A stretch of 34,809 nt of DNA. It comes from an uncultured Oscillospiraceae bacterium. GTDB taxonomy: Bacteria > Bacillota > Clostridia > Oscillospirales > Oscillospiraceae. Under the pieces are notes generated by a model, which made no database searches, was not told where the DNA came from, and was given only the letters and a program-made list of their open reading frames with translations. The first letter of the stretch is position 1. The number at the start of each line of letters is the position of its first letter. Shown in pieces: positions 1 to 33,321 of this stretch. The DNA lies in contig CANQCS010000025.1 in the NCBI GenBank assembly GCA_947589745.1, positions 1 to 34,809 of the forward strand, given 5' to 3'. Made by a program: the position numbers and the translations under genes.

Positions 1-118
1 TCTTTCCCTCGCAGCGCAGTTCCAATACTTTCAGCCGTGCGTCTGTCTGCTTATCCCGGTTTGCTTTCCTTGCCGCCACGATCTTCTGATAGTCTTCTTC
101 GCTAAATTTGTACTTCAT
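1..118 (-). CDS. IS630-type transposase, N-terminal part (runs off the window)
   Basis: The minus strand from an ATG at 118 reads MKYKFSEEDYQKIVAARK and on through KANRDKQTDARLKVLELR, 39 residues up to the window edge. This resembles the N-terminus, just before the helix-turn-helix, of IS630-family (Tc1/mariner-like DDE) transposases in Clostridia. An AAGGGTG ribosome binding site lies 7-8 bases before the ATG. An extended -10 (TGG then TATAAT) lies just upstream, as expected for an IS promoter near its end. The flank beyond about 186 is repeat-block DNA, so the element appears to sit in or beside a repeat unit. The family call is from recognition of a short stretch; the catalytic part cannot be seen. 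Confidence 0.6.
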   Translation of the reverse strand, partial: MKYKFSEEDYQKIVAARKANRDKQTDARLKVLELRCEGK

Positions 119-136
119 CTTTCGTCACCCTTTGCT

Positions 137-142
137 ATTATA
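137..142 (-). promoter_or_regulatory. Extended -10 promoter of the transposase
   Basis: On the minus strand the sequence TGGTATAAT gives a perfect -10 with an upstream TGn extension, about 19 bases before the start codon at 118. No good -35 hexamer is visible, which is usual for extended -10 promoters. Confidence 0.5.
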
Positions 143-185
143 CCACAGTTCTTCTTGCTTCGCTACTTTTTATTGGAGAATAGTA

Positions 186-1720
186 TTACATCGCCGCTCC
201 AACGAGATCGGACTTCGCCAATTTTGCTCTGTCCGATCTCACTTTTTGTTTTGCCTTTACGCATAGGCATAGCCACAGGCACTTGGCGGGCGTCTCATAA
301 ACGGCCACCTCGTGCTCCGCGCCCAAGATGCCAGCGCGATAATCATCTTGTTGCAGGCTGTCCCGAACACTTACGTTTAAGGATACGCATCTCTCCACAT
401 ACTCTTATTGCCTGCGGCGAAAAACGGCGAATATTTTGCCCCACAAAACTACTCACAAACTGACTCACAACATTATCTCGACAGGCCACATATCCACGAA
501 CGACACTTACTCACACCCTCGATCACGCGCCCGCCCAAACACCCCGGCGCCCTTCTTTACGCTGTTCCGAAACCGCAGCAGGCCCGGAACCGTAGTGCCG
601 TTCCGCCGCTGCCCGGCTCCACTCTGCACAGCCTTCGCTATTTCGCTCCGGCCGTGCGCTTTTGTCTGTAGGGATTTACACGCCTGAGCGCAGCCCCTGG
701 CATCTGGCGGGCGGCCCTGACGTTCTGTCCTTTAGAGCTTGTCAATGGACTATGGCTTTCGGGCCCTGCGCCCTTCTCTATTCTTGAACGGAATCGCAGC
801 ATACCCGAAACCGTAGGGTGGCTCTGCCGCTGCTAGATGAAGACTGTAGTATATCTGACTTCGAACGGCATCGCTGTGCAGCCTCCGCTAAAACTTATAC
901 ACGCTCCGGCTGCATCTTTCCATTGGGCCTTTTGTACATAGGCACAGCCCCTGTCATTTGGCGGGCGGCCCCGGCGTCTGTGTTTTAGAGCTGCCGAAGG
1001 ACTCTGGCATTTAGGCATTGCGCCCTTCTCTGTGTTTACCCAAAAGCGAGGCATATCCGGAACCGTAGTATCGTTCCGCCGCTGTAGGCCCGAAACTGTT
1101 GTGTGCATGATTCACTGCGGCTCCACTATGCGCGGCCTTCGCTATTTCGCTCCGGCCGTGCGCTTTTTCTGTAGAGACTTATACGCCTGAGCGAAGCCAC
1201 TGACACTTGGCGGGCGCCTCGGCATCAGCATCCTCTGCATATCCGAAACTACAAGACTGAACAGATGCGGTGTGCCCCCACGCCCGATGTGCCTGCGCTA
1301 TGATCCTCTTGTTGCAGGCTGTCCCAAATGTTTACATGTATGGGAACGCATCTTTTACACTTACCACCTGTGGCAAAGGCGAATACTTGGACTACTCACA
1401 GGCCGACTCACACCCCAACTCAAACATGGCGCCCTTCTTTCCACTGACCCGAAAACGCAGCTTACCCGAAACTGTAGTGCCGCTCCGCCGCTGCAGAGCC
1501 TGAACTGTTGTACCCATGACTCACAACGGCTCCACTATGCACAGCCTTCGCTATTTCGCTCCGGCCGTGCGCTTTTATCTATGGGGGACTCACACGCCTG
1601 GGCGAAGCCCCTAACACCTGGCGGGCGACCCTGACGTTCTGTCCTTTAGAGCTTGTCAATGGACTATGGCTTTCAGTATCATTACTTATCATGTCATGTT
1701 ATGTCCTGCCAACTTTAAGG
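186..1720 (-). repeat. Degenerate structured-repeat block 1 (sense strand minus)
   Basis: This stretch has no credible gene. It holds about five copies of a unit recognised by a conserved run of landmarks. On the plus strand these are GCGCCCTTCT (549, 769, 1020, 1430), then CCGTTCCGCCGCTGC, then a hairpin with loop TTCGCTATTTCGCTCC, then a CTGGCGGGCG box. The hairpins are at 204-240, 626-657, 878-913, 1130-1161 and 1539-1570. Tandem units are about 220-250 bp apart; the wider gap (1020 to 1430) contains a partial second module (about 1240-1330), and another partial one lies at about 300-370. A 46-bp stretch at 715-760 recurs identically at 1629-1674. 'Sense' here means the strand on which the loop reads GGAGCGAAATAGCGAA. 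Confidence 0.8.
204..240 (-). ncRNA. Variant repeat hairpin with swapped stem
   Basis: A perfect 10-bp stem (204-213 GAGATCGGAC, 231-240 GTCCGATCTC) encloses a 17-base loop reading AGAGCAAAATTGGCGAA on the minus strand. The loop resembles the constant loop of the repeat family (GGAGCGAAATAGCGAA) while the stem is unrelated to the usual one. The sequence GTTGGAGCGGCG after the stem matches the GTGGAGCCGCGG that follows the hairpin in other units. On the plus strand the stem is followed by ACTTTTTGTTTT, so a rho-independent terminator is an alternative reading. Confidence 0.5.
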
Positions 1721-1879
1721 CGCATCTCATATAGCAGGATAATCAAGTTCACTCACGACGACCATAGATCCATGTGCCTACGAGGAATCCTTAGAATAAC
1801 GCACATCAAAATTCGATTCTGACGAGGAGGAAGCGAACTATGATTTTGCTCACTGTATATGTTTAGTCTTTTCCCTCCT

Positions 1880-2000
1880 ACAGCAAGAGCATCTTCTTTG
1901 AGAGACTCTGCATCTATAGTGCGGCTGCTGCTGTTATCGCGGCCCGGCTGCGTTGCGAGGCTGTATGGGAGATGTTGAATGGCGCGGACCCGCTGCTGGT
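1880..2000. repeat. Module D, first copy
   Basis: A segment containing TCGCGGCCCGGCTG, preceded by a CCTACAGCA box and followed by GGAGATG, recurs with gaps at about 13635-13770 in the same orientation. Both copies lie at the high-coordinate end of a repeat block whose sense strand is minus (blocks 1 and 3), that is at its 5' side. The copies differ by indels that break any shared reading frame, so coding is unlikely. Confidence 0.5.
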
Positions 2001-2157
2001 ATGAGTGTAACGAGGCGCACCGCTCTTTCTCTGCTGCCCGATACTGATGTCCCCGATGTCCTTGAGGTCCCTTGGCGAGTTCCGAAAATATGGATGTGTG
2101 AGCCGCCCGCCGGGCGTCTGTGGCTATGCCTACATGAAGAAGGCTCAATGTAAGAGC

Positions 2158-2185
2158 GTAGCCGAAGCGGAATAGCGAAGGCTAC
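2158..2185 (+). ncRNA. Repeat hairpin, GTAGCC/GGCTAC stem
   Basis: A perfect 6-bp stem (2158-2163, 2180-2185) closes a 16-base loop, GAAGCGGAATAGCGAA. Compared with GCACGGCC/GGCTGTGC at 3404-3435 and GCAGTC/GACTGC at 11887-11914, both sides of the stem have changed together while the loop is nearly constant. Confidence 0.55.
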
Positions 2186-3147
2186 AAAGCGATGCCGTTT
2201 GATGTCCAGTCCACTACAGTTTTCCACCAAGCAGCGGCAGAGCGCCCTTACGGTTCCGGACGAGCTGCAGTTTCGGGTAAGCACGGAGAAGGGCGCCGGA
2301 CCTGAATGCCAGTGGCCCCTAGCAAGCTTTGAAAGAGCAGGTGTTGAGGACGCCCGCCAGGATGTCAGGGGCTGTGCCTAAGTGTGAAAGGCTCAATGTA
2401 AAAGAGCGGCCGGAGCGGCATAGCGCAGGCTGCAAAGCGGAGCCGTTTGAAGTCCAGTCCACTACAGTTTTCCACCATGCAGCGGCAGAGCGCCCTTGCG
2501 GTTCCGGGCGAGCTGCGATTCCAGGACAGTATAAGGAAGGGCGCCGTAATATGAGTAGACATAAGAGTGCGCACTTCGGATGGGTCATTCCCCTTTTTCC
2601 GTCGTAGGTGATAAGTAGTCAAAAGGAGAGGCAGTCCTTGAACGCAGGTATTAGGGACAGCCTACAGCAAGATGGTGATCGCGTTGGCATCTTAGGTATC
2701 GGGGCACGCCACAGTCATCCGGGAAGCTCCGCACGCCCACCGTGCTGTAAGGCAGCAAAAGGCGGAACGCTTGCGTCTTCGCCGGGATGATTGGGAAGAT
2801 ACTCTGTCATACAGTCACGAATGCGCCGAGGGAACAAGAACGCCTGGGACGCCCGCAAGGTGTCTGTGGCTGCGCCTCTGCGAAAAAGGCTCAATACAAG
2901 AGCGCAGACGGAGCGGCATAGCGGAGGCTGCACAGCGATGCCGTCTAAGGTCAGACTTACTACGGTTCTCGCTCAGCAGCGGCAGAGCGCCCCTACGGTT
3001 CCAGCAGAGCCGCGTTTCCGGGTAAGCGTAAGGAAGGGCGCAGTGAACTGGATGTCAGGGCCTCCGGCAATCTCCGAAAGCATAGGCGTCTGGGCCGCCC
3101 GCCGGATGCCTGTGGCTGCGCCTGAGCGTAAAAGCTCAATAAAAAAG

Positions 3148-3186
3148 GCGGAACTTGACAGTGCTCAAAGCAGCGTCAAATTCCGC
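3148..3186 (+). ncRNA. Repeat hairpin with long unrelated stem
   Basis: A 12-bp stem (3148-3159 GCGGAACTTGAC, 3175-3186 GTCAAATTCCGC, one mismatch) closes a 15-base loop, AGTGCTCAAAGCAGC. It sits where the usual hairpin sits: the GGCTGCGCCTGAGCGT box precedes it and the ACTACGGTTCCG box follows. Confidence 0.5.
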
Positions 3187-3403
3187 GGGGCGGCGCCGTA
3201 ACGTCTCATCACTACGGTTCCGTATATGCAGGCGCCAGACCACTACGGTTTTGGGAAAGCTGGGTTTCCGGGCCAGAATGGAGAAGGGCGCAGTGGATTG
3301 GATGTCATGGCTTCTCGGCAAATCTTTGAAAGAGTAAATGTCAGGGTCGCCCGCTGAATGCTGGGGGCTTCGCCCAGGCGTGTGAGTCCCCTCAGATAAA
3401 AGC

Positions 3404-3435
3404 GCACGGCCGGAGCGAAATAGCGAAGGCTGTGC
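3404..3435 (+). ncRNA. Repeat hairpin, type I consensus form
   Basis: An 8-bp stem GCACGGCC (3404-3411) / GGCTGTGC (3428-3435) closes the 16-base loop GGAGCGAAATAGCGAA. One pair is G-U on this strand and would be an A-C mismatch on the other strand, which favours the plus strand as the folded one here. A second hairpin just upstream (3363-3369 GGGGGCT, 3385-3391 AGTCCCC) also contains a G-U on this strand. Confidence 0.55.
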
Positions 3436-3560
3436 AGAGTGGAGCCGCGGTGGGTCATGCACACAACGGTTCCGGACCGGCAGCGGCGTAACGGCACTAC
3501 GGTTCCGGGTAAGCCGCGGTTCCGGGGCAGCGAAAAGAAGGGCGCGGAGTGTTATTGAGG

Positions 3561-3982
3561 CAGGGTAAGAGTTGGGGGAGATGTAGGATGGACCCATCCG
3601 CCAAGGTGGATGTTGGAGTACTACGGTCGAGTCGCAGCTGGGGAAGGGGGAGGAGAGGGGACATGTAGCGAAGGTAGAGACTCCACAGATGATGTATTAA
3701 CATTGTTTTTGCGCAGCGACCCGGTGCCTGAGAGTTCCCGGAGCTGCATCTCCCTGCGGTATCCGGACATCTCCGGCCGGAATGCACGTTGCCGGGGCAA
3801 GGCTTGCGGGTAAATGTCTGTATGGACAAAAACGATATAGGAGAGGAAAGAGGAGATAGGGGGGAGATGAGAGAATGACGTCACAAGAAAAGTCCGCATC
3901 CTTCAAGAGAATGCGGATGTATCTCAAAACGGATCTGATTCCATATTTTCGGAGGTCACTGCTCCCGCCTGACTCTGTGCCT
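3561..3982. other. Gene-free spacer between repeat block 2 and the AAA-ATPase-like gene
   Basis: I see no gene, repeat unit or convincing terminator here. It is purine-rich (runs of GGGGAGGAGAGGGG) and covers the place where the missing C-terminal domain of the neighbouring AAA-ATPase-like protein would be expected. No recognisable nuclease-domain remnant is visible in the minus-strand frames. Confidence 0.5.
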
Positions 3983-5458
3983 TCAGACGGCATCCTCTGC
4001 TCGATGAATGGCGGGAGGGAGCGATGAGGCAGATGCGGGCGGGCCAAGTCGTTCGAGTTTTTCGAGGATCTCAACCTGGCATACGCAAGAGACCTCTTTG
4101 TTTGGGATCGCAACATCGTAAAATTCGTTCCAGCCGGCCATCATCCTCTCACTGACCGGCGTCAGATACCCCGCCATGAGCAGGAAACTGTAGATGTATG
4201 AGGGGTTACTGTGCATCTGCGGGTATACGACATTGGAGTCTATTTTCGTTCGTAATGTCTTTCCGGACAACAGTGCTTTCAGGTCGTTTGCTATCTCATC
4301 GCCTGATACAGAGATGGCATCGTTGATGATATCATTGCTCCCTGCGGCTTGCCAGAACACCCCCGGCCGGCACCCGCTGCCGAAATAACGGATGACCGAG
4401 TATGGAGCGAAGATGTCACTGTGGCCGAACCGGTATCCGCCGTACCATTCACATATCTCATCGATCTTGTCTTCTGAATGATAGTACGCGGCCATCGTTC
4501 TGATTTCATCCGGCGTGAGTCCAAAATACTCGCTGTACCGGCTGTCCAGTACTGTATTGACTTTGATGTTGTTGAGACCGCCCAAAACACTGTCCTGGGC
4601 CAGACGCAGTATACCAGTCAGGAAACCAAACGTTAGATGCGGGTTGTCCTTCAGTCCGCCAGAGAAAAGATTCCGCAAGAAAGACACCGCCTCGTCGTAG
4701 AATCCGCAGATGTGTCCCTGCTGAATGGGAACATCGTAGTCCTCGATGATGATGACCGGCGCCACCCCATGGTGTTTGTGGAGCATGGCGGACAGGTCCC
4801 GCAGGATACCGGAAAGCTCTACTTTTGACATCTCGCCGGAGAGCAGCCTGTTGAATATCGACTTCTCAAAATCATCGCATCTCGGACTGCCTTTCAGCTC
4901 CGGGTGACGTAACGCCTCCTGTGCCAGCGTCTTCCTGATCGCTTCGTATGTGTACTCCCAGGTGTCGTACTTGCAATCTTTGAATGTGATGAAGATGACC
5001 GGATATTTTCCCTGGCAGTCCCTGTACTTCTTTCCGCATCTCCATATCTTCTTGGATCGGAAGTAAACGGATGTGTCCTTTTCCGATAGCTCAAAGAAGA
5101 CCCGGAGCATGTCCATATTGAGCGTTTTCCCAAAACCCCGCGGACGGGTGAATAACGACACCATTGGCCGTTCGTCCAAAAAGTCCCGGATCAACAGCGT
5201 CTTGTCCATATAATAGTACGAGGTCGAAGCGGTGCGGTAGTCCGAAACGCCAATGGGGAGAGGCAGCCTGTCAACATCCCGCGTCTGTTTGTCCCTGCTT
5301 CGCCGGTCAGATGGCTTTTCTGTGTTTTCCGGGACACTCCAGGAGCGGCCATGCTTCACGGCTCCCGGTACTCGGCCTGAGCTGCAGAGACCGGTGACCC
5401 ATCTTTCGGAGACACCCCATCTTTCTGCCGCCTCCTTGACCGTCATCATTCGTACCAC
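3983..5458 (-). CDS. AAA-ATPase-like protein with N-terminal HTH, C-terminally shortened
   Basis: Residues about 5-50 form a MerR/excisionase-like helix-turn-helix (MTVKEAAERWGVSERWV). The rest matches the AAA-ATPase-like family (PF09820): YYYMDKTLLI, a Walker A-like RPRGFGKT near residue 105, LRNLFSGGLKDN and YGGYRFG. Family members normally continue for roughly 120-150 residues into a PD-(D/E)XK nuclease domain. Here the protein ends soon after IPNKEVSCVCQVEIL, with a low-complexity tail, so that domain is missing. The Walker B-like site reads IIIEDYD near residue 239; the usual order is IDEYD. A GTG at 5458 with GGAGGT six bases upstream is my preferred start; the ATG at 5449 is an alternative. 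The gene stands alone between inverted repeat units. The family's function is unproven; it is often suspected to be mobile-element derived. This copy may be a decaying pseudogene. Confidence 0.75.
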   Translation of the reverse strand: MVRMMTVKEAAERWGVSERWVTGLCSSGRVPGAVKHGRSWSVPENTEKPSDRRSRDKQTRDVDRLPLPIGVSDYRTASTSYYYMDKTLLIRDFLDERPMVSLFTRPRGFGKTLNMDMLRVFFELSEKDTSVYFRSKKIWRCGKKYRDCQGKYPVIFITFKDCKYDTWEYTYEAIRKTLAQEALRHPELKGSPRCDDFEKSIFNRLLSGEMSKVELSGILRDLSAMLHKHHGVAPVIIIEDYDVPIQQGHICGFYDEAVSFLRNLFSGGLKDNPHLTFGFLTGILRLAQDSVLGGLNNIKVNTVLDSRYSEYFGLTPDEIRTMAAYYHSEDKIDEICEWYGGYRFGHSDIFAPYSVIRYFGSGCRPGVFWQAAGSNDIINDAISVSGDEIANDLKALLSGKTLRTKIDSNVVYPQMHSNPSYIYSFLLMAGYLTPVSERMMAGWNEFYDVAIPNKEVSCVCQVEILEKLERLGPPASASSLPPAIHRAEDAV

Positions 5459-5560
5459 ATCTTCACCTCCGCTCATCGCATGCGCAGGATCAACTAACAC
5501 ATGTTGATTATATCTTATATTCAGAATAATCTCAACCCCGCATGCCCGATCCTCAGGCAT

Positions 5561-5939
5561 ATCCCATTATGGATTGTCTGGACACACGGATGCTGCCTTG
5601 CTCCTCATCCGCTCTGGCAGATAGTCAAGGTCGTTGTCTATAGGGACAATTTCCCGATGAAACAGCTTTAATGTTAGGCATTCGTCAGTCACATGGGGAG
5701 AGGCCTGAGGAGATGCCTGATGCCGATAGCATCCAAGCCAGGGCAGGGGAGGGACCTTTCTCCGCCGTACCCTGTGCATTTTGTGGGCCCACCGTCTCCT
5801 CAGACATCCACTCCCATGTCCCCATACTTCGCGTCCTGCCCCCCCGGACCGGTCCCCCTGTGTTATCTCACGGCTCATCGGTCCCCGGCATCTCGCTCCT
5901 GAGCAGTATGGAAACGGGAGAGGGGAGACCTGAGAGGGA
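5561..5939. other. Gene-free spacer
   Basis: No convincing gene. A minus-strand open stretch contains REIVPIDNDLDYLPERMR (about 5590-5660), which looks more protein-like than its surroundings. I cannot assign it to a family and it has no start with a ribosome binding site. It could be a remnant of a gene destroyed by repeat expansion. Confidence 0.35.
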
Positions 5940-6270
5940 GGGCCTGGCACCCTTCTCTGCGCCTACCCGAAATCGTGGCTCACCCGGAACCGTAGGGTCG
6001 TTCCGCTGCTGCCGGTCCGGAACTGTTGCGTGTATGATTTGCTGCGGCTCCACTATGCACCGCCTTCGCTATCTCGCTCCGGCCGTGCGCTTTTATCTGT
6101 AGGGACTTACACGCTCAGGCGCAGCCCCTGGCATCCTGGCGGGCGTCCCTGACGCCTTTGTATTCGGTGATTGTCGATGGACCCTGACTTCCAGTTCACT
6201 GCGCCCTTCTCTGCGCAGACCCAGAAACGCAACTTCCCCCGAAGCCGTAGTGGTTTCGGACCTATACGCT
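5940..6270 (-). repeat. Structured-repeat unit pair right of the AAA gene (sense strand minus)
   Basis: One full unit, from CACCCTTCTCTGCGCC at 5948 with its hairpin at 6057-6088 (loop TTCGCTATCTCGCTCC on plus), is followed by the start of a second at 6207 (GCGCCCTTCTCTGCGC). The P1-type box GGCGTC-AGG-GACGCC is perfect near 6140-6155 on the minus strand. Its orientation is opposite to block 2, so the AAA-ATPase-like gene lies between inverted, inward-pointing copies. Confidence 0.75.
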
Positions 6271-6336
6271 CAAAATATGTAAGAAAGAAACAATGAGTTA
6301 TATAGATACCCACACCTTATGGCTGGGTCGATTCAT

Positions 6337-6367
6337 CCCGCGACCGACGTTGTCGGTCGGGGTTTTC
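6337..6367 (+). terminator. Terminator-like hairpin
   Basis: CGACCGAC (6341-6348), loop GTT, GTCGGTCG (6352-6359), then GGGGTTTTCTC. It would act on the plus strand, where no gene precedes it, so it may stop antisense transcription running toward the convergent pucR-type gene. On the minus strand there is no T-run. Confidence 0.4.
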
Positions 6368-6419
6368 TCGACATATTTTGTGATAAAAATAGTACGACTT
6401 TGACAACGGCCCCAATGTA

Positions 6420-7979
6420 TCACTTTCGCCTGTATTCTTTGTCCCACAAATTCAGCAGATTCATTGAGATCTTTATCCGCCCCATCTGTTCGTTTTCAAG
6501 ATCTTCCAGTGAAATACCGATAATATCTTCAATAGCTGCAATACGGTAGGACACGGTATTTCGGTGCATATTGCTCTTTTCCGCAGTTCTTTTGACATTG
6601 CAACCGTTGTCAAGATAATTATACAGAGTATTAAGCAGATCCTGCCCTTTTTCCTGAAGGCCCAACAACGGGAAAAGAATTGGGTCACAATACTTTAACG
6701 GTATCTGCCTATCCTCAGTCAGCGAATCTATAACTGCCCTACCGAAAATATCCCCGTAAAATACGATCCTGTTTCGGTCAGAGCAGTAGGAGAGACTCGT
6801 TTTTGCTTGCTGTAAAGCGGCGGTCAGGTATTCGTATCCCTTTATGCTCATGCTGACCCCTATCCTGATCCCGGTTACATCTAAAAAGCGGGATATCTCT
6901 GCAGTTAAAAATTCCTGCTCCCGTTCTTTGCTCTGCATGATCCCGATGATCTGTTTATCGTAATAATAGTATTGGAGGAACGGACAAACTCTCTTTAGCC
7001 GGCGCACATAGGAGACATATTCCTCCGGAGTGACCGGCTCCCCTACCGCATTTTTGCTGATAGCAAGCAGACTGTAATGATCGCTTTTCCGCCACTTCAT
7101 CTCCTCATAAAACTTGGACTTTAAGTCTTCAGAGACTCCTTCGCCGTTGACCAGTTTTGCAAAGACGACATGGCTGCTGTTTTCCTGCATCCCGATCTCT
7201 TTGAACAGCGCATCGGAGCATTCCAGGCGCTTCTGTATATGATAAATGATGGACAGATCCGCATTCTCATATTTCGCCGTAATTTCATCCATTGCCAAAA
7301 ATGCGATAGGCGTTCCGTTTCTGTTCCTGAGGATAGCCGAGATATATCGGTTTTCGGAGGGAATGTCTATCTCCGGATAGAAAAGAGGGACAACTGAATC
7401 CATATTTGCTTCCAGAAATCCCAGATATCCGGGTCGCAGAGCCTGAATAGAACCGAATCCATATTCAACAACATTTTTCCATATGGGATCTTCAATCGTT
7501 TCCGGAAGTTTGCCAGCGTATGCGATCAGGGAAAAGGAGGTATCAAACAGGGCGACCGGATCAGGAAAATGCCTGACTGCAATGTCCATTTGCTTTTGCA
7601 AAGGATCTCCCGCCAAAATGCTTTCCGAGAGATCTGCATCCCAGCAGTTATACAGGTCAAGGACCTGCAATAGCCTGTCATAAACCTGATCTAACTCGTC
7701 TTCCGTGTCAAGTTCAAGGATTTTCCATTTTGGCGAGATCCTCTTTCTATCCGGACATTTCCCCACAACGATAAATTTCAGTTCCTCAGCCAGATCTTGG
7801 TTTGACAATTCCAAGAAATTCGTACCAGACAACAGATATGCATAATTTTTTTTGCACTCTGTGTGCAGATTAAGACGATAAATATTGTTAATAGTCATTT
7901 CCACCGAAAACGGACTGCCCATTATCGTTGGGTGAAGATCTCCCACCTCTTTCGCTATCATTTCAATGTTTACTTTCAT
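6420..7979 (-). CDS. PucR/CdaR-type transcriptional regulator
   Basis: A 519-residue DNA-binding regulator. The C-terminus carries the PucR-family HTH (HTH_30): DNGCNVKRTAEKSNMHRN followed by TVSYRI, about residues 460-500, preceded by the typical PLLGLQEKGQDLLNTLYNYL. The long N-terminal and central part would hold the sensor and the GGDEF-like region of CdaR/PucR proteins, but no specific ligand motif is seen. The ATG at 7979 has GGGAG nine bases upstream; an in-frame TTG at 8003 lacks a better site. It lies downstream of the GcvT-like gene on the same strand with a terminator between, so it probably has its own promoter and may control that neighbour. The effector is unknown. Confidence 0.8.
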   Translation of the reverse strand: MKVNIEMIAKEVGDLHPTIMGSPFSVEMTINNIYRLNLHTECKKNYAYLLSGTNFLELSNQDLAEELKFIVVGKCPDRKRISPKWKILELDTEDELDQVYDRLLQVLDLYNCWDADLSESILAGDPLQKQMDIAVRHFPDPVALFDTSFSLIAYAGKLPETIEDPIWKNVVEYGFGSIQALRPGYLGFLEANMDSVVPLFYPEIDIPSENRYISAILRNRNGTPIAFLAMDEITAKYENADLSIIYHIQKRLECSDALFKEIGMQENSSHVVFAKLVNGEGVSEDLKSKFYEEMKWRKSDHYSLLAISKNAVGEPVTPEEYVSYVRRLKRVCPFLQYYYYDKQIIGIMQSKEREQEFLTAEISRFLDVTGIRIGVSMSIKGYEYLTAALQQAKTSLSYCSDRNRIVFYGDIFGRAVIDSLTEDRQIPLKYCDPILFPLLGLQEKGQDLLNTLYNYLDNGCNVKRTAEKSNMHRNTVSYRIAAIEDIIGISLEDLENEQMGRIKISMNLLNLWDKEYRRK

Positions 7980-8067
7980 AGCATATTTCTCCCGCTCATC
8001 CAATCTATCCTATCTACTCGAATATAGTAATATATTCACCACAAATCCCGCCCTCTGTCAATAGAAA

Positions 8068-8092
8068 ACCCCCTGCCAAAACGGCAGGGGGC
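8068..8092 (-). terminator. Rho-independent terminator of the GcvT-like gene
   Basis: Stem CCCCCTGCC (8069-8077) / GGCAGGGGG (8083-8091) with a 5-base loop; on the minus strand it is followed by TTTTCTATTG. It lies about 55 bases past the stop codon at 8147. Confidence 0.8.
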
Positions 8093-8146
8093 ACAAAAAC
8101 CAGGACAAGATGGGAAGTTTTATCCCAGGGATCCCCCTCTCAGCCT

Positions 8147-9514
8147 TTAGTCAAACACCGGATGAGGAATGGTTTCTGTATCGAAATTTTCATTTCTGCC
8201 TTCCTTGATGTACGGGAACAATGTCACTGTGGCCCGGATACGCACCTGATTCGTACCGGGATTCCCCCAGAGGACCTCCACTTCTTTACCCTCTACGGCA
8301 TATTCTTCAGCGACCGTGCAGATGGAGATCATCTCCCTTGTTTTTGCTACCAGTGTTCTTCCGGAGGACGCGCCGATCATCCTGTCGCCGTCATAGACAG
8401 CGTCGATATGGATACCACTGCAGTTCCTGACATAATCATAATCGCAGACCATATCCATGTAATCATACCGCTTGTCCGGATCCATGACGCCTGCCTGCAC
8501 CTTCAGGACATCTTCTTTGTTCCAAATCAAATGGACGGCGGTATTATGAGGCCTGGCCGCTTCCGCCATCAGCGCTTCTTTGCCTATGAAATCGTGATTG
8601 AATTTGACAAGGTTCCCCCAGCCGCAGTCGAACGGGCTCCGATATATGAGCTCACTGTCACGAGGAAGGCTTCCTGTATAGATGGTGGGATCCTGCGGCG
8701 TATCAAACGGAACACCAAAATGCTCTGCGATCTGGAAAATACTCCCCTCACAGTGCTCATTGATATATCCATGCCTGCCAATCTCCTGGATCCCGTATTT
8801 CTTGCCAACATCGAGAAGCTTTTGGTATACCGCATGGGCGTCTTCAATACTTCCGTGTACCTCATAGCCAAGAGTTCCGGCCATCCCTGTGCGGAGTACG
8901 AAGACATCTTTCCCACCGATCTTTGCATCCGCCGTATACATGAACTTCAGGTCGTGCAGATCCTGTTTGGTCGCCTCCTCCACGATTGGAAGAGAGTTCG
9001 GTCCGCACATCTGGAAGAAGAAATTGGTCTCGCCGGCGAAGCTGCTCTCAAAATGGAAACGATTTCCGGCCATTTGGTTCAGCATATTGGGATCCAGGAA
9101 GCAGGTCGCCAGGAAATCTTCTTCACTTCTGCGGATAACGATGCCGTCCAGCATGATTTTCCCGTTTTCGTCGCAGATGATCGTATGGCGAGCTTTTCCG
9201 ACAGGAAACACTTTGAAGGTATTCACGCTCACTACCCCAAGTAGGTCCAGAAATTCCTTTCCATGGACCTTATACATGGAAAAGGGGTTCAATCCTTCGT
9301 GGAGCGAGCATGTGTCGTGCCAGCTCATATCCTCTACGTCCCAACGGTCGAACGCAAAGGGGTGAAGCGGCCACGCGCCGTCGGAATCGGGGTGCCATAC
9401 GCCCTCCGATGACACATACACCTTATTCTTCGGGATCGTCCCGGGAATATAAGGTGAAAGCTTGATGGGGGTACCTTCGATTTTGCCTGCAAATAGGTTC
9501 TCAATGCCAGCCAT
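8147..9514 (-). CDS. GcvT-fold aminomethyltransferase-like protein (possible tetrahydrofolate-dependent O-demethylase)
   Basis: A 455-residue protein of the aminomethyltransferase/GcvT superfamily, longer than glycine-cleavage T proteins (about 365) and close in length to LigM/DesA-type aryl O-demethylases. Those enzymes move a methyl group from a methoxy-aromatic to tetrahydrofolate. Supporting features are SWHDTCSLHEGLNPF near residue 75, FDCGWGNLVKFNHDFIGKEAL in the region of the T-protein folate domain, TGMAGTLGYEVHG, and a C-terminal barrel ending in IRATVTLFPY. A GGAGG lies eight bases before the ATG. No gcvH, gcvP or lpdA is adjacent, which argues against glycine cleavage. Its only functional neighbour is the PucR-type regulator. 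The substrate is an inference; a dimethylglycine- or sarcosine-type demethylase is the alternative. Confidence 0.7.
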   Translation of the reverse strand: MAGIENLFAGKIEGTPIKLSPYIPGTIPKNKVYVSSEGVWHPDSDGAWPLHPFAFDRWDVEDMSWHDTCSLHEGLNPFSMYKVHGKEFLDLLGVVSVNTFKVFPVGKARHTIICDENGKIMLDGIVIRRSEEDFLATCFLDPNMLNQMAGNRFHFESSFAGETNFFFQMCGPNSLPIVEEATKQDLHDLKFMYTADAKIGGKDVFVLRTGMAGTLGYEVHGSIEDAHAVYQKLLDVGKKYGIQEIGRHGYINEHCEGSIFQIAEHFGVPFDTPQDPTIYTGSLPRDSELIYRSPFDCGWGNLVKFNHDFIGKEALMAEAARPHNTAVHLIWNKEDVLKVQAGVMDPDKRYDYMDMVCDYDYVRNCSGIHIDAVYDGDRMIGASSGRTLVAKTREMISICTVAEEYAVEGKEVEVLWGNPGTNQVRIRATVTLFPYIKEGRNENFDTETIPHPVFD

Positions 9515-9689
9515 TCCGTTTTCCTCCGTTCTAAATTTTTGATAGCTTTGATACAGTTATTTTACAGAAATATGGCTGGTTTGTGTTAGCCCTTTCTGCA
9601 CAAATTCTTTTTTTATTTTGTGCGTTTTTGTACATATCACGGACGGCCATCCATAAAACCGCTCACAGACTGGCTCACGTCCCTGCTCC

Positions 9690-12600
9690 TACGTCCGCTA
9701 AAGCACCCTTGCGCCCTTCCTTACGCTTACCCGGAATCGCGGCTCGTCCGGAACCGTAGGGGCGCTCTGCCGCTGCCGAGCGGGAACCGTAGTAAGTCTG
9801 ACTTCATGCGGCATCGCTATGCAGCCTCAGCAATACCGCTCCGTCTGCGCATTTTATATTAGCCTTTTGCGCTCCAGCACAGCCCCTAGCATCCGGCGGG
9901 CGTCCCAGGCGTTTTTGACCTCTCTGCGCATCCGTAACCGCGGGGCTAAGTATCCTCCCTATCATCCCGGCGAAGATGCAAACGTTCCTTCTTCTGCTGC
10001 CTTACCGCACGGTGGATGTGCGGAGCTTTCCGGATGACTGTGGCGTGCCCCCGGTGCTTTAGATGCCGGCGCGATCACCATCTTGCTGTAGGCTGTCCTG
10101 AATGTCTGCGTTCAAGTGCCGACTCTCATTCTTGACCTTTCACCACCTACGGCGTAAAAGCAGACGCATACATCAACTCTTGCCACTACTCCGACGTTAC
10201 ATGGAACCCTTACCCTCACAAAACCCTAACATTACCCTCACATCCTAGCGCCCTTCATTACGCTTACCCGGAACCGCATCATACCCGGAACCGCAGTACC
10301 GTTCCGCCGCTGCCAGTCCGAAACCGTTGTGTACATGATTCACCTCGGCTCCACTCTGCACAGCCTTCGCTATACCGCTCCGGCCGTGCGCTTTTGTCTG
10401 TAGGGACTTACACGCTTTGGCGAATTGACTTCTCGGCGTATTTGGAACCGCGGGTCTGAACATTTTCCCAATCATCCCGGCGAGGACGCATGTGCTCCTT
10501 CTTCTGCTGCTTTACCGCACGGTGGACGTGCGGAGCTTCCCAGATGATCGTGGCGTACCCCAGGTGCCTAAGATGCAGACGTGACCACCATCTTGCTGCA
10601 GACTGTCCCAAATCCCAGCGCCCTTCTTTACGCTGTTCCGGAACCGCAGTTCATTCGGAACGGTAGTATCGTTCCGCCGCTGCTATGCCGAAACTGTAGT
10701 GCGCTTGACTCACCACGGCTCCACTCTGTAGTCTCCGCTATGCCGCTCCGACTGCGCTTTTGTATGTAGTGACTTACACGCTCAGGCGCAGCCCCTGGCA
10801 TCCGGCGGGCGTCCCAGACGCCTGTGCTTTCGAAGATTGCCGGAAACTCTGACATCCAGTTCACTGCGCCCTTCTTTACGCTGTTCCGAAAACCGCAGCA
10901 TACCCGGAACCGTAGTACCGTTCCGCCGCTGCCAGTCCAAAACTGTTGTGTACATGATTCACCGCGGCTCCACTATGCACCGCCTTCGCTATACCGCTCC
11001 GGCAGTGCGCTTTTATCTGTAGGGACTTACACGCTCAGGCACAGCCACAGGCACCTGGCGGGCGACCTAAACGTTTTGACCTCTCGGCACATCCGTAACT
11101 GCGTGGCTAAACACCTTCCCTATCATCCTGGCGAAGACGCAAGCGTTCCACCTTTTGCTGCCTTACCGCACGGTGAACGTGCGGAGCTTTCCGAATGACT
11201 GCGGCGTGCCCCGATGCCTAAGATGCCGGCGTGATCACCATCTTGCTGTAGGCTGTCCTGAATGCCTGCGTTCAAGGGCCGACTTTCATTCTTGACCTCT
11301 CACTCTTGCCACTACTCCGACGTTACATGGGACCCTTACCCTCACAAAACCCTAACATTACCCTCACATCCCAGCGCCCTTCATTACGTTTACCCGAAAC
11401 CGCAGCGCACCTGGAACCGTAGTGCCGTTCCGCCGCTGCCAGTCCGAAACCGTTGTGTACATGATCCACCTCGGCTCCACTCTGCGCGGCCTTCGCTATT
11501 TCGCTCCGGCCGTGCGCTTTTGTCTGTAGGGACTTACACGCCTTGGCGAAGCCCCTGGCACCTGGCGGGCGTCCCTGACGTTCTTGCTCCCTCGGCGCAT
11601 CAGTAACTGCGGAACTGAGCATCTTCCCAATCATCCCGACGGAGACGCAAGCGTTCCGTATTCTTCTGCCTTACCGCACGGCGGACGTACGAAGCTTCCC
11701 GGATGACTGCGGTGTGCCCCCGGTATCCCGGATGTCGGCGCGATAACCATCTTGCTGTAGGCTGTCCCAAAACCCTGCGCCCTTCTTTACGCTGTTCCGA
11801 AACCGCAGCTCATCCGGAACGGTAGGGTCGTTCCGCCGCTGCTATGCCGAAACTGTAGTGTGCTTGACTCACCACGGCTCCACTCTGCAGTCTCCGCTAT
11901 GCCGCTCTGACTGCGCTCTTACATTGAGCCTTTTACACGGATGCGCAGCCCCTGGCATCCGGCGGGCGACCCTGGCACCCACGCTTCAGAGCTTGCCGAA
12001 GACCTCAGCGTTCGGGCACTGCGCCCTTCTTTGTCCTTACCCGGAACTGCAACAGACCCGAAACTGTAGTGCCGCTCCGCCGCTGCCTGTTCGGAACTGT
12101 TGTATGTAAGACTCACCGCGGCTCCACTCTGCACAGCCTTCGCTATTTCGCTCCGGCCGTGCGCTTTTGTCTGTAAAGCTTTACACGCTTGGGCACAGCC
12201 CCCGGCACTTAGCGGGCGACCCAAGCGTCTTCCTCCGTATATCCAAAACCACACGACAAAACGTCCTGGTCCTGATTGCTACTGTTTTTGCTGATGCCCT
12301 CTATACGGCTCCAGGATGCCCTAAAATCACTTTTGAAAAAGAACGTATCCTGTGTACTCACCTGAATATATGGATGCAGCCAGAACGCTTCCTGTGGCCG
12401 CGCAGTGCCATTCTGCCTCTGCGGATGTCCATCTCGTCGCAGGCTATCCCAAATACTTACATGAGAATGAGAGGATCTCTTCGCTCTCTCTTTTTGTCTG
12501 TGGCGAAAATGCGCGAATATTTAGGCGCACCGGCCGACTCTCATCCCTGCTCCAACGAACCTCTGTCCCATGGGAGCGGCACGCACTCATCGCCTGCTCC

Positions 12601-13260
12601 TCTGTCTGCCCGGACATCCAAACGCCCTTCTCTGTACTGGCCCGGAAATGAAGCTTGCTCGGAACCGCAAGGGCGCTCTGCCGCTGCTCGGCCGAAACCG
12701 TAGTGAGCCTGACTTCATACGGCATCGCTTTGCAGCCTCCGCTATGCCGCTCCGACTGCGCTTTCCATTGAGCCTTTTACGCTCTGGCGTAGCCCCCGGC
12801 ATTCGGCGGGCGTCCCAGGCATCCATGCTTCCAGAATTTCAGAGAAACCCTGACATCCGGGCACTGCGCCCTTCCTTATGCTTACCCGGAACGGCAGCAG
12901 ACCCGGAACTGTAGTACCGTTCCGCCGCTGATGGTCCGAAAATGTTGTATACTCAACTCACCACGGCTCCACTCTGCACGTCCTTCGCTATACCGCTCCA
13001 GCCGTGCGCTTTTGTCTGTAGGGATTTTAGGACTTCAGCGAAGTCCTTGGCACATGGCGGGCGCCCCTGCATCCATCCTTCTCCGCATATCTGGAGTCGC
13101 GGTCGTTGGCATCTTCTCAGCTACCTCGGAAAAGACGCGGACGTTCTTTCTTTTTCAGCCCTGCCGCATAGTGCGCGGGCGAAATATATCAGATGTTTGC
13201 GGCGTGCCAATTCTCCAGGATGCCCGCGCTGATGGCTTCTTGTTGTAGGCTGTCAAAATA
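9690..13260 (-). repeat. Degenerate structured-repeat block 3 (sense strand minus), with higher-order repeat
   Basis: The largest block, 3.5 kb without a credible gene. Module A starts at about 9710, 10250, 10619, 10868, 11366, 11777, 12020, 12619 and 12868. Hairpins with a 16-base loop are at 9820-9847, 10358-10389, 10728-10755, 10977-11008, 11484-11515, 11887-11914, 12131-12162, 12732-12759 and 12976-13007. Module B copies (CCGCAC/GTGCGG hairpin, then CACCATCTTGCTGTAGGCTG) are near 9970, 10470, 11120 and 11630, with diverged ones near 12300 and 13110. The order B-A-B-A-A occurs twice, at about 9950-11100 and 11100-12240. The segments 10177-10262 and 11303-11388 differ at only about two positions. 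Confidence 0.85.
11887..11914 (-). ncRNA. Repeat hairpin, GCAGTC/GACTGC stem (type II)
   Basis: A perfect 6-bp stem encloses a 16-base loop that reads AGAGCGGCATAGCGGA on the minus strand. Related copies at 10728-10755 and 12732-12759 keep the loop and most of the pairing. Together with the type I stems this gives compensatory change at several stem positions. Confidence 0.55.
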
Positions 13261-14483
13261 CTGGAGGTTTCGGACTACTCATGATCGAGAGCTTCATACG
13301 AGTTCTGATAGCCGCTGTGTCTTTCTTTACGCGGGTCCAAAACGCAACATCTTCGAGACAGAAGGGTCTTTCTGTTGCTTTTGGGCGAATTGCTCGCTCC
13401 ATGCAGTTGCGCTTCGCGTCCTCCTCTCAATACGCCGCGGCTATTCTCAGTCTGTAAAGAACGCCAGACGACGGTAAGCCCATTTGCGACATACTGGAGC
13501 CATGTCTTCCATACTTTCTCTGTACGTCCAAACCGCAGCATGAATGTCTTCTCGTTGAAAGCCCCAGGGTCAGTAACGTGACTGCGAGCCATATCGAGAC
13601 AAAGCGGCATTTCGGAGCCACAGGCATTTCTTCCCCCTACAGCAGTAGATTCTTCATCGGGGGCAGCAGTTTCCTTGTGCATCAACTGCGGCTGGTGTCG
13701 CGGCCCGGCTGAGCTGCAGAGCCGCTGTGGAGATGATGGATGACGTGGCGCCGGTTTCGATGCGCCCGTCACGCGGCACGATTTTTTGCTGCCTGCATGA
13801 GCAGTCCCGTCACGTCTTCGCATGTCATCGTTCCGCCTCCAGTAAGAAATCTCAGCTGACTGCTTTCTGGACGGGCGCCCGTTCGTACACACTCGCAGCA
13901 GTTCCGGCTGACACATGTTTGTCAGAGCCTGTGTCGTTGGCCGGATTCCCGTATACACAAACACGGCGGGCGTGAGAGGGCGGAGGAGGGATGCAGGGAA
14001 GGCAGGAGAGTCCGCTCTCATTCGGAACGAAAGCCGGACTGGCTCCGTGCATTCCTCATGCGCCTCGCCTTCTTTCTGATGAGACATGTCTGAGATGACT
14101 GAAGTCTTTTGTCCCTAAAGACATTCGAGCATCAACGAAGGCACCGACTTCATGCATACATCTGATGCTTTTTTCCGGGGCCATGTCTGAGGAGACCTGA
14201 GAGCTGAGATTTGAGCCTTTCTCCGCGGCTTGAGGAAATGAGAGAGTAGGTGCCGGAGGCAGACGAGAGAGCCGATGAGTCAAGGGCAGGGGAGATGGGA
14301 GGGGCGACGATGTGTACCGTGTCCCCAGCCCCTGTCCCGGCTGCGGAAGGAGATAGATGCGAGAGCCTGACAGAAACCGCCCCGGATTGCCGAAGAAAAC
14401 CAGTCCGGGGCGGCGTATATTCGTTTCCAATCTCCTGACGATGGGCGGACACAGCGCCTTGGCCCCGGAACAGGGGGAGAGGC
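13261..14483. other. Degenerate gene-free region right of block 3
   Basis: No convincing gene. A minus-strand reading frame of 270 codons is open at 13275-14087 but has odd composition, no family motifs and no good ribosome binding site. Weak traces of the repeat unit occur near 13320-13450, such as TTTACGCGGGTCC and a degenerate CGAATTGCTCGCTCC loop. Module D recurs at about 13635-13770. The 14200-14480 part is purine-rich like 3561-3982. Confidence 0.5.
13635..13770. repeat. Module D, second copy
   Basis: CCCTACAGCAGTAGATTC followed by TGCGGCTGGTGTCGCGGCCC and GGAGATGATGGATGACG aligns with 1880-2000 in the same orientation. As in the first copy, it stands on the 5' (sense) side of a minus-sense repeat block. 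Confidence 0.5.
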
Positions 14484-32220: not shown

Positions 32221-33321
32221 ATGTGGGAACAACTGGCCCGAGAGATCTGTGACAAGACGCTCCTCGTCTGCCGCCGGAGCGGGGACAGGATCCCGTACCT
32301 GACCGGCAGGGACGGACGGTTCGACGACCAGACGGACCGAAATATCTCCTGGTGGACCAACGGCTTTTGGGCCGGTCAGCTCTGGCAGGTGTACGCCTTC
32401 ACCGGGGACGAGGACCTGCGGCGGACCGCTGTGGCCATCGAGGAGAAGCTGGACCGGGCCCTGCTGGACGACATGGGCATGGACCACGACAGCGGCTTCA
32501 AGTGGCTCCCCACCGCTGGGGAGGACTACCTGCTCACCGGCTCCGGGGACTCCCGGCGCCGGCTGCTGCTGGCCGCCTCCAATTTGGCGGGGCGGTTCAA
32601 CCCTGCGGGAGAGTTCATCCGGGCCTGGAACGACCGGGAGGGAAAAAACGCCGGCTGGGCCATCATCGACTGCCTGATGAATCTGCCTCTGCTCTACCGG
32701 GCCTCGGACCTCACCAGCGACCCGCGGTTCGCCCAGGTGGCCGCCCGACATGCCCACACCGCTGTCCGGCATTTTCTGCGGCCTGACGGCTCCTGCGAGC
32801 ATATCGTAGTCTTTGACCCCGTCTCCGGCAAAAAGCTGGACACCCTGGCGGGCCAGGGCATGTACGCCGGCTCCGCATGGAGCCGCGGTCAGGCCTGGGC
32901 GATTTATGGCTTCACCCTGTCCTATCTCCACACAGGAGACACCGCTTTCCTGGACGCGGCAAAAAAGGCAGCGGCGTTCTTCTGCGGGCACATCCCTGCC
33001 TCCGGTTTAATTCCGGCGGATTTCTGCCAGGGACCGGACTGCGATTTTGAGGATGACAGCGCCGCCGTCATTGCCGTCTGTGGCCTGCTGACCCTGGCAG
33101 AGGCAACGGATGATGGGGCGTACAAGACCGCGGCGGAGCGCTTGCTGTCCGCGCTGGTAAAGCACGGCCGCTGCGACCTGACGCCGGACACCGACTGCCT
33201 CCTGACGCGGTGTTCGGTGAGCTATGACGCGCCCGTCCACGATCACCCCCTCATCTACGCCGACTACTTCTTCACCGAGGCGGTGCTGAAGCTGGCGGGG
33301 AAAGGATTGGTCATATGGTGA
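32221..33321 (+). CDS. GH88 unsaturated uronyl hydrolase
   Basis: A 366-residue cytoplasmic (alpha/alpha)6 enzyme that hydrates and releases the 4,5-unsaturated uronic acid left by polysaccharide lyases. Motifs are NISWWTNGFWAGQLW (41-55), Asp90 in MDHDSGFKW and Asp150 in GWAIIDCLMNLPLLY, corresponding to the two catalytic Asp of Bacillus unsaturated glucuronyl hydrolase. RGQAWAIYGFTLSYLHTGD and ADFCQGPDCDFEDDSAA follow. The start at 32221 has AGGAGGT right upstream. It overlaps the DUF2264 gene by seven bases, so the two are co-translated. No lyase gene lies in the window. Confidence 0.9.
   Translation: MWEQLAREICDKTLLVCRRSGDRIPYLTGRDGRFDDQTDRNISWWTNGFWAGQLWQVYAFTGDEDLRRTAVAIEEKLDRALLDDMGMDHDSGFKWLPTAGEDYLLTGSGDSRRRLLLAASNLAGRFNPAGEFIRAWNDREGKNAGWAIIDCLMNLPLLYRASDLTSDPRFAQVAARHAHTAVRHFLRPDGSCEHIVVFDPVSGKKLDTLAGQGMYAGSAWSRGQAWAIYGFTLSYLHTGDTAFLDAAKKAAAFFCGHIPASGLIPADFCQGPDCDFEDDSAAVIAVCGLLTLAEATDDGAYKTAAERLLSALVKHGRCDLTPDTDCLLTRCSVSYDAPVHDHPLIYADYFFTEAVLKLAGKGLVIW

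Follow-up and report, generated by a model that had tools for sequence, protein, structure and literature searches.

The window, i.e. the whole stretch of DNA analysed here, is 34,809 nt long and is the entire contig C25 of a 4.05-Mb genome in 252 contigs. It starts with one end of an IS630-type element, followed by an array of non-coding repeats that is interrupted by an AAA-ATPase_like gene and, further on, by a PucR-type and a GCV_T-fold gene (Table 1). The array is a mosaic of two modules. The first, M1, is a unit of ~205 nt bounded by CGCCCGCC and GAAGGGCGC, and the hairpins described below form only a small part of it. The second, M2 (query of 230 nt), is interspersed among the M1 units; 14 of its 16 matches in the window, C105, C204 and one relative span at least 120 model positions, and RNAalifold gave energies of -11.9 and -16.5 for its two strands. 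A reading made beforehand without database searches (the sequence-only reading) had placed the repeats in three noncoding blocks at 186-3560, ~5926-6258 and ~9690-13260. This placement is correct, but the reading overlooked the larger M1 unit and the fact that the halves of block 1, 1a and 1b, are oppositely directed. In the tightest runs the M1 units follow each other every 244-254 nt. This spacing and the occurrence of 1-nt indels between orthologues argue against coding, and we rejected a coding origin of the array on these grounds. The GC-skew profile gave no information on function.

Table 1. Features of the array locus and of the E2 arrays. For array blocks and hairpins the strand given is that of the GGAGCG..ATAGCG loop, opposite to the terminator-like strand with the T-tail.
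Feature	Position	Strand	Basis
One end of IS630-type element, other end on C204	1..186	-	
Array block 1a	186..1653	-	nhmmer units
Type D hairpin, 10-bp stem GAGATCGGAC/GTCCGATCTC, 17-nt loop; + strand continues ACTTTTTGTTTTG	204..240	-	
Partial M2 copies	319-368, 1262-1334	-	
Type A hairpin	626..657	-	loop-pattern list
Type B2 hairpin GCAGCC/GGCTGC, 24-nt loop	878..913	-	
Type A hairpin, one mismatch	1130..1161	-	
Type A hairpin	1539..1570	-	
Array block 1b	2079..3564	+	nhmmer units 2079, 2326, 2830, 3071, 3322
Type B hairpin GTAGCC/GGCTAC	2158..2185	+	
Type B hairpin	2406..2433	+	
Further M2 copy	2644-2869	+	
Type B hairpin, one mismatch	2904..2931	+	
Type C hairpin GCGGAACTTGAC../..GTCAAATTCCGC, unrelated loop; CTTTTTT next on - strand	3148..3186	+	
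Type A hairpin	3404..3435	+	
AAA-ATPase_like gene between blocks 1b and 2	3983..5560	-	
Array block 2, one M1 unit and one partial unit	5926..6258	-	nhmmer units
Type A hairpin, one mismatch	6057..6088	-	
Two genes between blocks 2 and 3: PucR-type HTH 6420-8003; GCV_T-fold protein 8147-9514	6420..9514	-	
Array block 3, M1 units interleaved with M2 modules	9697..13258	-	nhmmer units, M2 search
Type B hairpin, one mismatch	9821..9848	-	
M2 module, short GC-rich hairpin CCGCAC..GTGCGG	9881..10109	-	
Type A hairpin	10358..10389	-	
Further M2 copies	10424-10618, 11044-11269, 11550-11777, 13045-13258	-	
Type B hairpin, one mismatch	10728..10755	-	
Type A hairpin GCACTGCC/GGCGGTGC	10977..11008	-	
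Type A hairpin GCACGGCC/GGCCGCGC, one mismatch	11484..11515	-	
Type B hairpin GCAGTC/GACTGC	11887..11914	-	
Type A hairpin	12131..12162	-	
Type B hairpin	12732..12759	-	
Type A hairpin, one mismatch	12976..13007	-	
E2 array stretches	L097 (G000 C8) ~477-2040; L098 (C226); L075, L076 (G019)		

The pattern GGAGCGNNATAGCGNA occurs exactly 14 times on C25 and 21 times in the whole genome, and the same pattern read backwards does not occur at all. With up to three mismatches there are 30 matches in the window compared to 11.2 expected, a number that none of 100 shuffles reached. The match at 33218 is a stemless chance match and was dropped from the hairpin counts. From the pattern list and by eye we identified 20 hairpins in the window: 17 have a 16-nt loop, and the other three are variants with a 24-nt loop of the same sort (type B2), a related 17-nt loop (type D) and an unrelated loop (type C). 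The sequence-only reading had described ~20 hairpins with a constant 16-base loop. The number stands, and so do the stems and positions it named, but the 16-nt loop is found in the 17 copies only, and the hairpin at 3148, to which the constant loop had also been ascribed, does not share it. Stems C and D occupy the same slot in the unit as A and B with quite different letters.

To count M1 units, 23 loop-centred stretches were made into an nhmmer model, which was applied to C25, C105, C204 and the contig L070 of a relative. In the window's own genome this gave 31 full units, 19 of them on C25, nine on C204 and three on C105, besides partial units. A separate DNA search of the whole genome yielded 35 matches, all confined to the same three of the 252 contigs. 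An intergenic stem-loop repeat family calls for at least seven similar copies with a common hairpin outside genes, and with 31 full copies and pairing above controls M1 qualifies as one.

Array 1a probably runs on beyond the start of the contig. Both halves of the IS630-type element, at the start of C25 and at the start of C204, match, at 92-93%, one and the same copy (L135) at another place in the genome, and the C204 part carries a DDE_3 domain. The coverage of the M1 model is split across the two contig ends, with positions 9-94 on C25 and 121-206 on C204. The matching halves and the split model suggest that the IS probably divided one array, so that C25 1653-186 would neighbour C204 through the element, an arrangement pieced together from contig ends and not read from assembled sequence. 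Towards the end of C204 (L012 ~3945-4015) we also noticed by eye a run of 12-bp tandem repeats like TCCGTGGTACGC.

Many copies and an IS630-type element within the array are what one would expect of a mobile hairpin element (REP/RAYT, MITE) moved by a hairpin-recognising transposase, an option that the sequence-only reading had listed. However, the IS seems to lie inside an M1 unit and not at its border, and the copies form a regular array on three of 252 contigs. In addition, no Y1 transposase (PF01797) was found in the 98.83% complete genome, whereas the domain is present in five of 14 control genomes. We consider a mobile hairpin element extremely improbable.

Besides its own genome, M1 appears to occur only in L070, as far as we searched and with limited sensitivity. 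The loop pattern had a single match in each of five of 98 other genomes, compared to three for the backward control and ~7 that 13 fixed bases would give by a hand estimate. Scanning named genome contigs with a pattern gave six loci (L069-L074), of which L070 is a true relative; L074, which was read in part, was rejected as it has its match in coding-looking sequence without an array. A covariance-model search of 400 genomes of the family matched only the own genome, and with 10 candidates per genome and strict filters it could have missed distant relatives. Neither phages (searched with one M1 unit) nor plasmids (searched with block 3) gave a match and three viral pattern scans returned nothing, and we rejected a phage or plasmid origin on these results. 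This narrow range is also what a neutral satellite would show, an explanation to which we return below.

L070 is a 4.6-kb contig with a coverage of 3 that is filed under a rabbit-gut Mailhella MAG, and it is probably a misbinned contig from a relative of the window's species. Two stretches of the window align collinearly to it, 14277-11311 (84%) and 6253-5736 (86%), and the gene content between these array segments differs. At 3038-3280 L070 has an HTH_3-type gene between array units (HTH_3 over cut-off, MqsA antitoxin below cut-off) that replaces the PucR-type and GCV_T-fold pair of the window. Neither of these window genes has a match at E 1e-30 among 24 congeners, a set in which only eight genomes reach 90% completeness with contamination of 5% or less. 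The ORF at 13275-14087 (270 aa), which adjoins the array, has no Pfam match, differs from L070 by 19, 30 and 25 substitutions at the three codon positions, and its L070 counterpart contains two stops. Within it, window 13281-13580 and L070 ~697-996 are identical at 289 of 300 positions (96%), with flanks at 86% and 81%. Over 13275-13579 the substitutions number 0, 7 and 4 at the three positions of the listed ORF's frame, which hints at another frame.

We then asked how well the arms pair. The gapless set A1 holds the 32 hairpins with a 16-nt loop from the window, C105, C204 and L070, 23 of which are distinct; B2, C and D hairpins were left out of it and of the tree. A second alignment, A2, from which the covariance model was made, holds 35 of 38 units, with three of type C left out and six ends redrawn by hand. 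As A2 misplaces the arms of types A and B, pair counts were made on A1. Across the 23 distinct hairpins 82.6% of the cells are paired; shuffles gave 74.4%, with none of the 500 reaching the real value, and slid controls gave 17.9-44.3%. In 21 cells both sides have changed, compared to 7.2 in shuffles (again none of the 500 as high), and the covariation score is 0.371 compared to 0.205. Counted by pairs, four pairs changed on both sides and there are 11 further pair types; 130 and 201 of 500 shuffles reached these values, i.e. they are not above chance. The excess in pairing and in doubly changed cells agrees with the view that a folded element and not a protein lies behind the repeats.

Recombination between two ancestral repeat types alone, which the sequence-only reading had named as the alternative, does not explain everything. 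Pair 5-28 occurs as five standard pair types (A-U, G-U, G-C, U-G, U-A). On a tree of the flanks the minimum number of changes is 12 for this pair, seven for pair 7-26, four for pair 3-30 and one for the A/B type, although such counts would be raised by recombination among copies, and the tree is weak, with 8 of its 29 inner branches starred. Stems C and D also speak against only two types. An all-against-all search for covarying helices in a MAFFT alignment of 30 units gave no clear set of helices and ranked the hairpin twelfth; this alignment misaligns the A/B arms, and transitions make G-T pairs cheap.

The array could also be a neutral satellite, junk spread by slippage and gene conversion. 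Its arms would then be kept paired by template switching at imperfect palindromes, which alters both arms together without selection. A neutral satellite is the chief rival explanation, and a number of observations fit it: several copies carry a stem mismatch (e.g. 6057-6088), and the loss of a pair in such copies indicates a loose constraint. The changes between orthologues are also dominated by transitions (333 compared to 132 transversions).

The five orthologous hairpins of the window and L070 bear on both sides of this question. The loop is identical at 74 of 80 positions (92.5%) and the tail at 48 of 51 (94.1%), compared to 61 of 72 (84.7%) for the arms and 680 of 855 (79.5%) for the rest of M1. 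Assuming independent sites and without correction, the difference to the rest of M1 has p = 0.004 for the loop, 0.010 for the tail and 0.36 for the arms. Loop and tail letters are better kept than the rest of M1 and the arms are not significantly so, and the latter is again in line with a neutral satellite. The former is not, as template switching of stems does not predict a loop and T-tail conserved above their surroundings. The hairpin at 11484..11515 corresponds in L070 to GCACTGCC/GGCAGTGC with zero mismatches.

Read on the strand opposite to the loop strand, the hairpin leads directly into a T-rich tail. At least four Ts in 10 nt were found in 39 of the 40 copies in the window, C105, C204 and L070 (17 A, 15 B, four B2, three C, one D; as the copies are related these are not 40 independent observations), with a mean of 5.45. 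The background on the T-tailed strand is 2.35 Ts per 10 nt, and 20% of its 10-mers have at least four. On the loop strand the mean after the hairpin is 1.27 Ts per 10 nt in 33 copies, the chance match at 33218 included. T-tails are found with A and B and likewise with the non-homologous stems C and D, which a neutral satellite does not lead one to expect, and we regard that explanation as rather unlikely overall.

Both parts of an intrinsic terminator, a stable stem and a T-rich tail on the same strand, are present, with strong stems in C and D and weaker ones in A and B. The C and D copies have long stems followed by runs of 4 to 6 Ts, and the four that we folded gave -19 to -29.4 kcal/mol with z scores of -4.2 to -5.2 (-26.7 kcal/mol and z -5.0 for 3148..3186, -19.0 kcal/mol and z -4.5 for 204..240). 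Three A/B hairpins gave only -11.8 to -12.9 kcal/mol with z scores of -1.9 to -2.9, and tails in A and B are often interrupted (GCTTTTGT, GCTCTTAC). Type C comes nearest to an ordinary intrinsic terminator, and type D has a terminator-like stem and tail but a 17-nt loop. A terminator scan of 1-14300 (loop of 3-8, 5 Ts in 8) reported 12 sites compared to 13.0 by chance and no M1 hairpin; none of these hairpins, C and D included, falls under this short-loop, dense-T-run definition. The orientation of the array blocks does not consistently follow the neighbouring genes: in the terminator sense block 1b is placed behind the AAA gene, as the related E2 array described below is behind rplL, and neither block 2 nor block 3 points to the end of a gene.

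The conserved loop could instead point to a structured or processed RNA made from the loop strand, with the loop as a site for a protein or another RNA. Nine of its 16 columns are invariant in 32 copies, and it is, as noted, well kept between orthologues. RNAalifold gave a consensus of -18.9 for the loop strand compared to -12.9 for the T-tailed strand (30 units, as unit 10228 without start motif was dropped here, in the helix search and for the z scores). Among the inner six pairs there are nine G-T pairs read on the loop strand and three of the mirror A-C type; over all eight pairs the counts are 12 and 15. The T-tailed strand is not favoured by these wobble pairs, and that they do not tell the strand of the hairpin is in line with a neutral satellite.

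On the other side, the T-tail lies on the strand opposite to such an RNA, and the module as a whole hardly folds. The mean z score of the 30 units is -0.90 and -0.96 on the two strands, with three and seven units under -2, barely better than chance, as a neutral satellite would also have it. Rfam gave no match in the window at the gathering score and none in 9600-13300 at E up to 1, and the nine promoter-like sites in 1-14300 are no excess over the 9.9 expected. The new structured RNA put forward by the sequence-only reading is unlikely to cover the whole unit, and we consider an RNA of the loop strand improbable. Its third suggestion, a protein-bound array, may apply, given the unusual conservation of the loop between orthologues.

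Our preferred reading, which we hold with slightly better than even confidence, is that of a lineage-specific, locally amplified mosaic non-coding array in which the M1 hairpin is intrinsic-terminator-like on the strand opposite to the one first described. The mosaic of modules itself, its confinement to three contigs, the pairing, the T-tail on one strand and the better conservation of loop and tail against one relative are established by the data. The array would grow and reshuffle by tandem duplication, recombination and loss. The M1 hairpin, with its stem, loop and immediate T-rich tail, would work as, or descend from, an intrinsic-terminator-like element, and the letters of the stem could vary or be replaced freely provided that pairing holds, which would give rise to the swapped stems. 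Recombination between modules may exchange the genes between the blocks. Pairing kept above chance and a conserved tail fit a terminator as far as arms and tail are concerned, and judging by these features the hairpins may stop transcription. A conserved loop is unnecessary for termination and is unexplained by termination alone. One could go further and see the array as an insulating platform, with serial transcription stops, a loop bound by a trans-acting (anti)termination factor and repeats that recombine to swap accessory genes (PucR-type and GCV_T-fold in one strain, an Xre-type helix-turn-helix in the other), but we rate this extension as very improbable.

Intergenic stem-loop repeats as such are already known. 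Some of the SLS families have been suggested to act as terminators (PMC2267715), and M1 resembles them in being multi-copy and intergenic with a common hairpin. Unlike the SLS families as portrayed there, the M1 hairpin is a minor part of a 205-nt module, the arrays are local and mosaic, and several unrelated stems occur per slot. REPs are 20-40 bp long, tagged by GTAG or CGTC and in some cases tied to RAYT transposases, and termination is among the roles proposed for REP/BIME (PMC3733652). Extragenic palindromes in many copies, with close units in opposite orientations, are shared with them; on the other hand, M1 copies are not scattered and the host genome has no RAYT-type (Y1) transposase. 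Among palindromic candidate RNAs from the human microbiome 230 of 250 were predicted terminators (PMC8040213), and we liken them to the M1 hairpins in that respect only.

With Rho-independent terminators M1 shares a stem and a T-rich tail on one strand and a stem free in sequence with its pairing kept. It differs from them in the loops of 16-24 nt in A, B and D, in the weak tails of A and B and in the dozens of copies placed serially in non-coding DNA. A search of open-access literature by titles and abstract openings found no description of an M1 array. M1 stands apart from the known intergenic stem-loop repeats in its size, its local mosaic arrays, the several unrelated stems per slot and the fact that its genome has no REP transposase.

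If the hairpins stop transcription, they offer a natural set of ~40 related terminators in which the stems are swapped and the loop stays mostly the same, and this set could be used to ask which parts of a terminator selection acts on. It would also mean that a bacterial lineage can build satellite-like arrays on the kilobase scale that enclose strain-variable genes. Should the array be neutral, it would provide a clean test of paired-arm change without selection.

When the genus was searched at the DNA level, one of the 24 other genomes gave a hit, through two short matches (30 and 22 nt, E 0.007). These led us to E2, another family of non-coding arrays on the kilobase scale, which carries short iterations of the GTGAG/CTCTGAG type. 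E2 is carried by G019, the nearest congener by L7/L12 (99% identical), and by the own genome on C8, C226 and C127. On C8 it begins ~30 nt past the strong intrinsic terminator of rplL. A short motif beside the hairpin, seen by eye as CGCCTGGGCGCAGCC(C/A)CTGGCATC, is common to E2 and M1. With nhmmer it was matched weakly 18 times (E between 7e-4 and 0.8), always in the same relative orientation, across five of the six E2 stretches, and never in a reversed set or in three shuffled sets. Repeated 11-mers after rplL number 142 in the own genome and 0-34 in the others (15 genomes with >300 bases there). Taken together, the position after the rplL terminator, the shared motif and the excess of 11-mers suggest that a small lineage has multiplied stretches starting at terminators, and the first two also count in favour of the terminator-like reading of M1. 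Past the E2 arrays we also saw by eye iterations like CTCCTAATTCCCAAAAT and AAAATCTCGGAATAATTCGG, on L097 (C8) at ~200-440 and on L098 at ~1550-1650.
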